Source: Syntrophothermus lipocalidus DSM 12680 (GTDB lineage: Bacteria > Bacillota > Syntrophomonadia > Syntrophomonadales > Syntrophothermaceae). Taken from it: a stretch of DNA of 64,000 bases. Below are positions 3,702 to 18,214 of this stretch, piece after piece. Location of the stretch: NCBI RefSeq assembly GCF_000092405.1, contig NC_014220.1:1550001-1614000 (forward strand), written 5' to 3'. The notes below the pieces were generated by a model. The model was not told the DNA's origin. It ran no database searches and worked only from the letters and a program-made list of their open reading frames with translations. The number at the start of each line of letters is the position of its first letter. The first letter of the stretch is position 1. The position numbers and the translations under genes are program-made.

Positions 3702-5630
3702 CTACCCTACTACTTTTCCTGCGATCTCTTTCTTTATCCGATTCAAGAACTCGGCAACCGGTTGCGCCCCGAGGTCACCCTCCTTGCGCTTGCGAACCGA
3801 GACCGTCTTGTTTTCCGTCTCCTTGTCTCCCACTACCAAGAGGTACGGTATACGCTGCAATTGCCCTTCCCGAATCTTGTAACCCACCTTCTCGCTCCTG
3901 AGATCGCTCTCTACCCTGAGCCCAGCTTCCCGGAAACCGGCTTCCAGTTCCACAGCGTACCCGTGATGCCGCTCGGTTATCGGAATTATGCGTACCTGCA
4001 CCGGAGCCAGCCAAGTAGGAAAGGCGCCACCGAAGTGCTCGGTAAGTATTCCGATGAACCTTTCCAAGCTGCCGTAAATAACCCGGTGTATCATAACCGG
4101 GCGGTGTTTTTCACCGTCTTCACCGACATAGGTTAGGTCGAATTTCTCCGGCATAAGAAAATCAAGCTGGATGGTCCCACACTGCCAGGTCCGGTCTAAC
4201 GAGTCCCGCAGGTGAAAATCGATCTTGGGGCCGTAGAAAGCGCCGTCGCCCTCATTGATCTTGTACTCCATCCCCTTCTCTTCCAATGCCTGCCGCAACG
4301 CGCCGGTCGCCTTTTCCCAGATTTCGTCGGATCCCATCGCCTTCTCCGGTTTGGTCGACAGCTCAACATGGTAGCTGAAGCCAAACAGACGGTAAAAATG
4401 ATCAACCATGTCGATGACGCCTTTGATTTCTTGGGTTATCTGCGAAGGTAGCATGAAAATATGGGCGTCGTCTTGGGTAAAAGCCCTGACCCTCATCAAC
4501 CCGTGCAGTACCCCTGATTTCTCGTGACGGTGTACCAAGCCTAATTCGCCCAGACGTATAGGCAACTCCCGGTAACTGTGTAGGTTCTGTTTGTAAACCA
4601 GTATCCCCCCCGGACAGTTCATGGGCTTTACCGCGTAATCTTCTTCGTCGATGGTGGTAAAGTACATGTTTTCGCGGTAGTGCTCCCAGTGTCCGGATTT
4701 CTCCCACAAAGAACGGTTGAGGATTATCGGGGTTTTGATCTCCTGGTAGCCGGCCTTAACATGTTCCTGTCTCCAGAAATTCTCCAGTTCATTCCTGATT
4801 ATCATTCCCTTGGGTAAGAAGAAAGGGAACCCCGGCCCTTCATCCAGAACCACGAATAGACCTAGCTCTCGCCCTAAACGGCGATGGTCCCGCTTCTTGG
4901 CTTCTTCTAATTTATACAGGTAATCATCGAGCATAGATTTCTTAGGAAAAGAGGTGGCGTAGATCCTCTGCAGCATCTTGTTCCGTTCATCCCCGCGCCA
5001 GTAAGCCCCAGCCAAACTCATCAGCTTGAAGGCTTTGATCTTGCCGGTGGACATCAGGTGAGGGCCGGCGCAGAGGTCGATAAACTCTCCCTGCTGGTAA
5101 ACGCTGATGGTCTCCCCTTCTGCCAGTCCCTCGATCAGTTCCACCTTATACGTTTCACCCAAACCAGAGAAAAGCTCGAGCGCTTCTTCACGGGAAATTT
5201 CCTTTCTCACGATCGGGTAATCGGCGGAGATAATACTCTGCATCTCTTGCTCAATACGATCAAAATCCTCAGGAGTAAACGGCTGTTCCGGATCAAAATC
5301 GTAATAAAAACCCTTGTCTATAGCCGGGCCTATCGCCAGTCGCGTGCCGGGAAACAACCGCTTCACCGCCTGGGCCATAACGTGAGCACTCGAGTGGCGG
5401 TATACTTCCCGCCCGTCCTCATCCTCAAAAGTCAGTATCTCCAGCCTCCCGTCCGCAGGTATAGGGGCAGCGAGGTCCATCAGTTTCCCGTTAAACCGAA
5501 CGGCCAGAGCCTCACTCATCAACCTTCCACCTAGGTCCTGAACCACTTGAGCAAAAGTCGTTCCTTCCGGGTAATCTCTAACCTTTCCATCCCCGAGCGT
5601 GATCCTCAACATCGACTGGTCGCCTCCCAT
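3702..5630 (-). CDS. thrS: Threonyl-tRNA synthetase
   Basis: About 642 residues from the ATG at 5630, or 636 from the ATG at 5612 (MLRITLGDGK, the usual family N-terminus, with GGGAGG upstream). An open frame continues to 5729 but those residues are not family-like. Domains in order: TGS (about 1-65), editing/second additional domain with HSSAHVMAQA, class II catalytic core with MNCPGG and HRHEKSGVLHG, and anticodon-binding domain from about residue 540 (APVQVRIIPI). It charges tRNA-Thr. No T-box motif is visible upstream; a foldable leader is instead (see findings). Confidence 0.97.
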   Translation of the reverse strand: MGGDQSMLRITLGDGKVRDYPEGTTFAQVVQDLGGRLMSEALAVRFNGKLMDLAAPIPADGRLEILTFEDEDGREVYRHSSAHVMAQAVKRLFPGTRLAIGPAIDKGFYYDFDPEQPFTPEDFDRIEQEMQSIISADYPIVRKEISREEALELFSGLGETYKVELIEGLAEGETISVYQQGEFIDLCAGPHLMSTGKIKAFKLMSLAGAYWRGDERNKMLQRIYATSFPKKSMLDDYLYKLEEAKKRDHRRLGRELGLFVVLDEGPGFPFFLPKGMIIRNELENFWRQEHVKAGYQEIKTPIILNRSLWEKSGHWEHYRENMYFTTIDEEDYAVKPMNCPGGILVYKQNLHSYRELPIRLGELGLVHRHEKSGVLHGLMRVRAFTQDDAHIFMLPSQITQEIKGVIDMVDHFYRLFGFSYHVELSTKPEKAMGSDEIWEKATGALRQALEEKGMEYKINEGDGAFYGPKIDFHLRDSLDRTWQCGTIQLDFLMPEKFDLTYVGEDGEKHRPVMIHRVIYGSLERFIGILTEHFGGAFPTWLAPVQVRIIPITERHHGYAVELEAGFREAGLRVESDLRSEKVGYKIREGQLQRIPYLLVVGDKETENKTVSVRKRKEGDLGAQPVAEFLNRIKKEIAGKVVG

Positions 5631-15416: not shown

Positions 15417-15490
15417 ACCCATGTTACTGGAAGGATTTCCAGGGATAATCAGTTTCAAAATGAGATATCTTAAAACAGGAGGTGATAACG

Positions 15491-16351
15491 GTGCGGGCTC
15501 TCTGGAGAGGTTCCATCAGTTTCGGCCTGGTAAACGTGCCGGTAAGAATGTATGCGGCCACCGAGCGGAAAAGCGTAAGCTTCCGACAGATCCATAGGGA
15601 ATGCGGCACTCCCATACGCTACGAGAAGGTATGCCCGGCGTGCAACCGGAAGGTCGAGGAAGATGAGATAGCTCGGGGTTACGAATACGAAAAGGGAAGG
15701 TTTGTAATAATCGAGGACAAGGACCTGGAAGCCATACCCGACGAAACCACCCGCACCATCGATATTATAGATTTTGTGGACCTTAAAGAAATAGACCCGG
15801 TATATTTTGATCACTCCTATTTTCTCGGGCCCGAGGAAACCGGGCAAAAGGCTTACCTCCTGCTCTTTGAAGCCCTGAGAAAAACTGGAAAAATCGCCAT
15901 AGCAAAAGTCACGATCCGAGCCAAACAGAGCCTGGCGTGCCTGAGGCCTTACGGTGAAAACCAGCTGGTGATAGAGACCATGTTTTATCCCGACGAGGTC
16001 CGGGATGCGGGGGAAATAACCGTCTCGCCGGGAATAAAGCTGCATGAAAACGAAATCAAAATGGCGGTGCAGCTTATCGATTCCCTAGCTGCCGAATTCA
16101 GGCCCGAAAAATACACCGACGAGTACAGGAAGGCCCTGCTCGATATAATAAGGGCCAAAGTGGAGGGCCAGGAGATAAAAATACCCGCTCCCCGGGAGGA
16201 GAAGGTTGTGGACCTCATGGAAGCCCTGAAGGCGAGCCTGGCCATGGTGGAAGAGGAAAAAGGAAAAAACAGACTGCCGGCCGGGGCAGGAAAAAGAGGG
16301 CCACTTCATAACCCCAGTTCCACCCGCTTGATGACCGGGTGTCTGAGATAA
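15491..16351 (+). CDS. ku: Ku protein (bacterial NHEJ), frame disturbed at the 3' end
   Basis: Start at the GTG at 15491, 6 bases after GGAGGTG; MRALWRGSISFGLVNVPVRM is the standard Ku N-terminus. The ring-forming DNA-end-binding core is complete (YFLGPEETGQKAYLLL, LRPYGENQLVIETM). As sequenced, the frame runs 46 bases into the 3' end of the ligase gene on the other strand. A shift of one base at A-AAA-AAC (16264-16270) would instead give the lysine/arginine-rich tail typical of bacterial Ku and a TAA at 16309-16311. Ku recruits the ligase and polymerase encoded next door to double-strand breaks. Confidence 0.92.
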   Translation: MRALWRGSISFGLVNVPVRMYAATERKSVSFRQIHRECGTPIRYEKVCPACNRKVEEDEIARGYEYEKGRFVIIEDKDLEAIPDETTRTIDIIDFVDLKEIDPVYFDHSYFLGPEETGQKAYLLLFEALRKTGKIAIAKVTIRAKQSLACLRPYGENQLVIETMFYPDEVRDAGEITVSPGIKLHENEIKMAVQLIDSLAAEFRPEKYTDEYRKALLDIIRAKVEGQEIKIPAPREEKVVDLMEALKASLAMVEEEKGKNRLPAGAGKRGPLHNPSSTRLMTGCLR

Positions 16352-17244
16352 CCTTTCTCCGTGTAGTCGTAAAATTCCACTTCAACGGAAGCTGACGGTA
16401 GTACCCATACGAGATTTTCCCTTCTTTCCACGGCGGGCGGATTGACGAAGGGACAGGTATTTTCGGCCCTCCGGGATAGAAAGTCGTAAAGAGCCCTGCC
16501 CGTTTCCTCATCGAGGCCGCTGGAAGCCCGGCCTATATAGATTAAGTCCCCTTCCACAAGCTGGCCGAGAAAGAGGGACCGCACCTGCTTCCCTTCTGCT
16601 ACAAACCCCCCCACCAGGGCGGTGGTCCGCTGGCGGTTTTTAATTTTAAGCCATTTTGCACTTTTCTTTCCGATCTGGTAGGTACTTTCCAGTCTTTTGG
16701 CCACTATGCCCTCCAGACCCTTTTCCCTGACGATTGCAAAAAGGGCCTTCCCACGTCCCTTGAAGGTATCGGTTACCACCACCGGGTCCGAAGATTTTAA
16801 GGTGGATCTCAATATCCCGTCCCGCTGCCAAAAGGGAAGGTCCGCCAGGCACTTATCTTTTAGGTACAGGATGTCAAAGACCACATAGGTCACCGGTATT
16901 CTGGTGGCCAGGTGGTTTATGGTGCGCGCGTCGGTGGCCCGGTCACGCCTCATCAGCTGGTGGAAATTGGGCTTATCGCCGGAAAGGGTTACGATTTCCC
17001 CGTCCAGCACGGCGCTTGTGCCCCTAAGGGCCTCCTTCAACGCATCGGCCACTTCGGGATACTGGGCGGTGCGCTTTTTCATCTTCCGGTTGAAAAGTTC
17101 CACCGGCCCGTCCAGGTGGGCTATTATCCTTGTTCCGTCCCACTTTATCTGAAAACCGTAGTTTTCATCGTCAAAGGCCTCCGGGTGGAAGACCGGTTCC
17201 ATGGGAATGAAGGGGGTTCCCGGCTTTATCACAGGCATCACCAT
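16306..17244 (-). CDS. ligD: ATP-dependent DNA ligase (LigD ligase domain, stand-alone)
   Basis: 312 residues. Motif I is KWDGTR with the adenylated lysine; VLDGEIV (motif III), LEGIVAKRL (motif IV) and KWLKIKN (motif V) follow. A C-terminal OB fold ends EVEFYDYTEKGYLRHPVIKR, the usual LigD finish. The polymerase and phosphoesterase domains of multidomain LigD are absent; the polymerase is a separate divergent gene at 17309. It seals broken ends in NHEJ. Tail-to-tail with ku. Confidence 0.93.
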   Translation of the reverse strand: MVMPVIKPGTPFIPMEPVFHPEAFDDENYGFQIKWDGTRIIAHLDGPVELFNRKMKKRTAQYPEVADALKEALRGTSAVLDGEIVTLSGDKPNFHQLMRRDRATDARTINHLATRIPVTYVVFDILYLKDKCLADLPFWQRDGILRSTLKSSDPVVVTDTFKGRGKALFAIVREKGLEGIVAKRLESTYQIGKKSAKWLKIKNRQRTTALVGGFVAEGKQVRSLFLGQLVEGDLIYIGRASSGLDEETGRALYDFLSRRAENTCPFVNPPAVERRENLVWVLPSASVEVEFYDYTEKGYLRHPVIKRVELGL

Positions 17245-17308
17245 ACATATTCTGCCCCTTTCATAAAGAATAAAGAAACAAGGTAAATACTATAGTAGTA
17301 TTGGGAAG

Positions 17309-18214
17309 GTGTTGTGTTTGCCGGTGGTAGTCGTTGAAGGCGAAAAGCTGGAACTGACAAACCTCTCAAAGGTGATGTGGCCTGAGGAAAATATAACAAA
17401 AGCTGATTTTATCGATTACTGCGTGCGGATAGCTCCCTACATTCTACCCCACCTCAAGGATCGCCCCCTGGTTTTCACGCGCTACCCCGATGGAATATAC
17501 GGAAAGGCTTTTTACCAGAAGAACGTACCCGATTACGCTCCGGACTGGCTCATGACTTACGATGAAGAAATTAATGACGGCAACCGGAGGAAGCTGGTCA
17601 GGTATGTACTCATAAAGGATCTGAAAAGCCTTGTCTGGGCCGCCAACCAGGCCAGCCTGGAGATGCATCCCTGGCTTTCCCGGGCGGGGACCATCGACCA
17701 CCCGGACTTCGTGGTCTTCGATCTTGACCCCATGGAAAATACAGGTTTCGAAGATGCCCGGCAGCTGGCGCTAGCCTTGAAAAGATTGCTCGAAATGGAA
17801 GGGCTGAAGGGCTTCCCCAAGACTTCCGGCGCTACCGGCCTGCAGGTCTACGTGCCGGTGGAGGCCAGGTACACCTACCGTCAGGTCAGGACCTTTGCCG
17901 AATTCTTCTGTAGGGTGCTGGAAAAGACTTTTCCGGAAAAAGCCACGACGGAAAGGAGTATAAAAGACCGCAGGGGTAAAGTGTACCTGGATTATCTGCA
18001 AAACGTGAAGGGCAAAACCCTGATAGCACCGTACAGCCCAAGGCCTCTGGCAGAAGCAACGGTTTCCGCACCGGTCACATGGGATGAACTGGAAAGCGGC
18101 GCGGTGCCCTCCATGTTCAAAATCCGGAACATGGCTGAAAGGCTGGAAAAGATGGGGGATCTGTTCAGGGGTGTCCTGGAAGAAAAGCAGCGCATAGACC
18201 GGCGGCTGCAGTAA
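17309..18214 (+). CDS. ligD: LigD-type primase-polymerase (NHEJ polymerase)
   Basis: 301 residues of the archaeo-eukaryotic primase family found as the polymerase domain of LigD. It contains VFDLDPMENTGFED (catalytic DxD), KTSGATGLQVYVPV (SGxxG nucleotide site) and the late acidic motif YLDYLQN. The N-terminal LSKVMWPEENITKADFIDY is diagnostic. It fills gaps, often with ribonucleotides, at ends held by Ku. GTG start at 17309 is the outermost; nearby TTGs at 17312 or 17318 are alternatives. Divergent from the ligase gene across a 64-base gap containing AATACTATAGTAGTATT, a possible operator. Confidence 0.92.
   Translation: MLCLPVVVVEGEKLELTNLSKVMWPEENITKADFIDYCVRIAPYILPHLKDRPLVFTRYPDGIYGKAFYQKNVPDYAPDWLMTYDEEINDGNRRKLVRYVLIKDLKSLVWAANQASLEMHPWLSRAGTIDHPDFVVFDLDPMENTGFEDARQLALALKRLLEMEGLKGFPKTSGATGLQVYVPVEARYTYRQVRTFAEFFCRVLEKTFPEKATTERSIKDRRGKVYLDYLQNVKGKTLIAPYSPRPLAEATVSAPVTWDELESGAVPSMFKIRNMAERLEKMGDLFRGVLEEKQRIDRRLQ

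Follow-up and report, generated by a model that had tools for sequence, protein, structure and literature searches.

The bacterial Ku family (TIGR02772) is the closest described system for the protein analyzed here. The extended C-terminus of these proteins varies from 1 to 155 aa, and work in M. tuberculosis and B. subtilis has shown its roles in DNA bridging and in the contact with LigD (PMC9638933). Horizontal exchange of the NHEJ genes has been reported to be widespread (PMC7719229). Concerning the reading frame, two precedents are relevant: the singleton 3'-end frame breaks analyzed by Antonov et al. (PMC3711429), and the -1 frameshift sites of the IS1-type elements, in which A_AAA_AAC is a proven natural site (PMC4066793).

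The ku gene described in this work is located in a 64-kb window (the whole stretch of DNA that was analyzed) of the genome of Syntrophothermus lipocalidus. Its product resembles the other members of TIGR02772 in the core, in the minimal C-terminus and in a basic extended tail, the latter in either of two frames, but the frame used for the extended tail is not homologous to that of the relatives and enters the antisense of the adjacent ligase gene. As written, the gene departs from its inherited frame by a net difference of one base, and the Ku core is intact. As in the breaks of Antonov et al., the change appears in a single genome, near the 3' end of the gene and with intact homologues; we have found no feature in which it differs from them. 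The IS1-type sites share with this ku the identical heptamer in the identical phase, whereas this gene is not mobile, its site is not conserved, its putative stimulator is unconvincing and its motif may be explained as the by-product of a deletion. A recent and real one-base deletion is the most likely reading of the locus (probability about 0.55); this value and the weights given below to the alternatives are a judgement and not a measurement.

The ku gene and its cassette

The Ku open reading frame extends from a GTG at 15491 to a TAG at 16349-16351 without any internal stop. This GTG, preceded by AGGAGGTGATAAC (AGGAGG), is the likely start, rather than 15482. The product matches the TIGR02772 Ku_bact profile with 329.7 bits (cut-off 150) along positions 1-259 of its 259, and both the core and the minimal C-terminus are intact. 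The genes encoding the LigD ligase and the LigD polymerase are found near ku, also intact and collinear with those of Thermosediminibacter litoriperuensis (L033), the closest relative of the window Ku. The polymerase scores 278.6 bits with TIGR02778 (cut-off 214.7) and the ligase 216.5 bits with TIGR02779, slightly below the cut-off of 227.75.

The window Ku is 93% identical to that of T. litoriperuensis and only 54-57% identical to the Ku proteins of the organism's own family, and its body has evolved under strong constraint with respect to the former (dN 0.034, dS 0.80). In the phylogenetic tree it falls in a group of seven together with Thermosediminibacteraceae (support 99/99), apart from Syntrophomonadaceae. 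This placement, the DNA similarity of the cassette and the layout shared with T. litoriperuensis suggest that the Ku/LigD-ligase/LigD-polymerase cassette was probably acquired horizontally. LigD is split here into two genes (16306-18214), the ligase on the minus strand and the polymerase on the plus strand, with ku converging on the ligase, and the genes of T. litoriperuensis are arranged likewise.

Coordinates of the features discussed in the text (window positions)
Feature	Position	Strand	Basis or remark
NHEJ cassette, collinear with T. litoriperuensis	15421..18211	.	79% nucleotide identity
ku as written, frame 0	15491..16351	+	286 aa; TIGR02772 match
GAGG, Shine-Dalgarno-like	16253..16256	+	spacing could stimulate a -1 shift (rule: PMC4066793); not clearly above background
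A_AAA_AAC, point of departure from the inherited frame	16264..16270	+	alignment with L033 and L034
Inherited Ku tail, -1 frame, QTAGRGRKKRATS then TAA (16309-16311)	16270..16311	+	homology to the L033 and L034 tails
Replacement tail of frame 0, RLPAGAGKRGPLHNPSSTRLMTGCLR, lying in part on the antisense of the ligase gene	16271..16351	+	translation
Small hairpin CTGCC-GGCCGG-GGCAG, 3 nt past the heptamer	16274..16289	+	-9.5 kcal/mol
LigD-type ATP-dependent DNA ligase, convergent with ku	16306..17244	-	TIGR02779; layout of L033
LigD polymerase domain, separate gene	17309..18214	+	TIGR02778

The break site and the two tails

In frame 0 the codons GGA (16262), AAA (16265) and AAC (16268) place the heptamer AAAAAAC in the X_XXY_YYZ phase, and the protein ends as ...EEEKGKNRLPAGAGKRGPLHNPSSTRLMTGCLR*. 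Read in this frame, ku overlaps the ligase gene by 46 nt, versus 6 nt (16306-16311) in the -1 frame. The tail of T. litoriperuensis homologous to the -1 peptide is encoded in the normal frame and ends as ...GKKEATGRGRRKRATS-stop (also given as ...EATGRGRRKRATS* and, in a longer form, as KEKEGKKEATGRGRRKRATS-stop), and its ku and ligase frames share the same 6 nt (3829-3834). On this comparison the -1 peptide is a homologous Ku tail, beyond what chance would give, because in the relative the homologous tail is encoded without a shift and the short overlap with the ligase is the same. The tail of a second relative, L034, is homologous as well (ETAGRRKKKTAAS-stop), and its alignment locates the difference, since GGG AAA AAA GAA ACT GCC GGC in L034 corresponds to GGA AAA AA- CAG ACT GCC GGC in the window. 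The unshifted tail of T. litoriperuensis and this alignment thus point to the -1 tail as the inherited one, with a net one base missing from the A run.

Against T. litoriperuensis alone, the net difference of the tail amounts to four bases, and a single loss of 4 bases would be possible from that pair; however, L034 favors an indel of one codon plus the loss of one base in the A run. With respect to T. litoriperuensis, the -1 tail still shows a coding pattern over its 13 codons, a small sample (dN 0.16, dS 0.52), and the stop is kept as TGA/TAA. Because this tail still looks coding, the break should be either young relative to the separation from T. litoriperuensis or not real. The normal frame encodes the tail in all of the six nearest relatives, and no similar break was recognized among about 85 parsed Ku tails. 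Within the parsed loci, a clear homologue of the tail in a different frame was not found for any of the Ku proteins with low-charge tails, and a search of viral contigs for a second copy of the window Ku tail gave no match.

Most of what the sequence-only reading had stated about this site is confirmed. The coordinates of the break and of the frame-0 stop were exact, the phase that it assigned to the heptamer agrees with the codon positions, and the -1 tail with its TAA does leave the two genes almost without overlap, as in T. litoriperuensis. It had also regarded the -1 peptide as the usual lysine/arginine tail of bacterial Ku; the peptide is indeed homologous to such a tail, but basic residues are not scarce in the written tail. 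Counted from EEEK on, both tails contain 7 K/R and 3 E, and a loss of the basic charge of Ku in the written frame was therefore rejected.

Origin of the frame break

According to the preferred reading, the ku gene of the acquired cassette would have recently suffered a net loss of a single base within the A run 16264-16269. The main competitor, less probable, is a residual assembly error, i.e., that the organism carries one A more and its ku is intact, ending with QTAGRGRKKRATS at 16311. Homopolymers are the classic site of 454 errors, and the first assembly of the S. lipocalidus TGB-C1 genome (2,405,559 bp in one contig) was made with 454 reads and Newbler (PMC3035303). Against an error, that genome was sequenced at 103x with 454 and 81x with Illumina (184.6x combined), the Illumina reads being used to correct bases, and the error rate claimed for the finished sequence is below 1 in 100,000 (PMC3035303). 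The coding pattern of the -1 tail, its inherited stop and its inherited 6-nt overlap with the ligase also fit an error, since a tail that still codes is expected equally if the base is merely absent from the assembly. According to Antonov et al., singleton frame breaks validated by BLAST are expected to be mostly sequencing errors, but those at the 3' end are more likely to be real indels than those at other positions (PMC3711429). Also against an error, the A run is short (6-7), and a codon-usage frame scan of the 64 kb did not detect any other mid-gene frame break, a scan that is blind to breaks this near the end of a gene, because Ku itself went unflagged.

Recoding, either by -1 frameshifting on A_AAA_AAC or by transcriptional slippage on the A run, would yield a functional amount of Ku with the inherited tail together with the long form, and we consider it unlikely. 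Its appeal lies in the correct phase of the heptamer, in the GAGG located 9 nt upstream and the small hairpin 3 nt downstream, in the apparent past selection on the -1 tail, and in the use of the same heptamer by the IS1-type elements. However, the loss of one A from GGA-AAA-AAA-C yields an in-phase A_AAA_AAC automatically, and thus the heptamer is not independent evidence, since the deletion itself creates it. In the relatives, too, several single-base deletions in the tail would produce a heptamer in phase at the deleted position, and the motif occurs in phase three times in the 46.9 kb of coding sequence of the window. A_AAA_AAC is furthermore inefficient in E. coli (PMC4066793), and in the documented cases of bacterial transcriptional slippage the runs have about 9 A (PMC5009743), versus the 6 A of this ku. 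The putative stimulators do not clearly stand out either. Shine-Dalgarno-like motifs are common in the lysine/glutamate-rich tails of Ku, being found upstream of up to 73% of the positions in those of the relatives, and the z-score of the hairpin is weak, about -1.2 to -1.65, the windows of up to 40 nt spanning -1.65 to -1.05 and the longer ones being positive; the equivalent stretch of T. litoriperuensis likewise forms a small hairpin. The frameshift site is not conserved in the nearest relatives, the break being a singleton of the window, and a literature search on programmed frameshifting in bacterial Ku did not find any such report among the papers listed.

The sequence-only reading had preferred an indel to -1 frameshifting, and the unshifted tail of T. 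litoriperuensis and the A-run alignment with L034 support that preference; it had also proposed comparing Ku with close relatives, and this comparison places the homologue of the -1 tail in their normal frame. If the indel is correct, slippery heptamers at the sites of A-run deletions should not be counted in favor of programmed frameshifting. If recoding were shown, frameshifting would here have rescued a cellular repair gene, which is unusual.

The Ku protein after a possible deletion

If the deletion is real in the organism, the Ku protein may well be still working. Ribosomes would keep to the written frame and produce a Ku with an intact core, an intact minimal C-terminal region and an altered extended tail, which would end 40 nt beyond the old one, within the antisense of the ligase. 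Trace amounts of the old tail may come from spontaneous slippage on A_AAA_AAC, although there is no sign of programming. It is very improbable that the heptamer is productive in the sense that some ribosomes shift to -1 and the resulting pool of Ku with two tails partly compensates a young deletion. Under an indel, the annotation should be taken with caution, given that the C-terminus listed for this Ku would differ from the inherited one.

The tail change would probably be near-neutral for Ku, the new and the old tail being equally basic. That a swapped tail can be tolerated is plausible, given the variability of the extended C-terminus and the short tails of two Ku proteins of the same family (L003 and L018), which have 16 residues with net charges of +1 and 0. 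Since these tails are nearly neutral, not every Ku of this group has a basic extended tail. The L003 and L018 proteins terminate in RQRADPGVH and RQPEAERVH, respectively.
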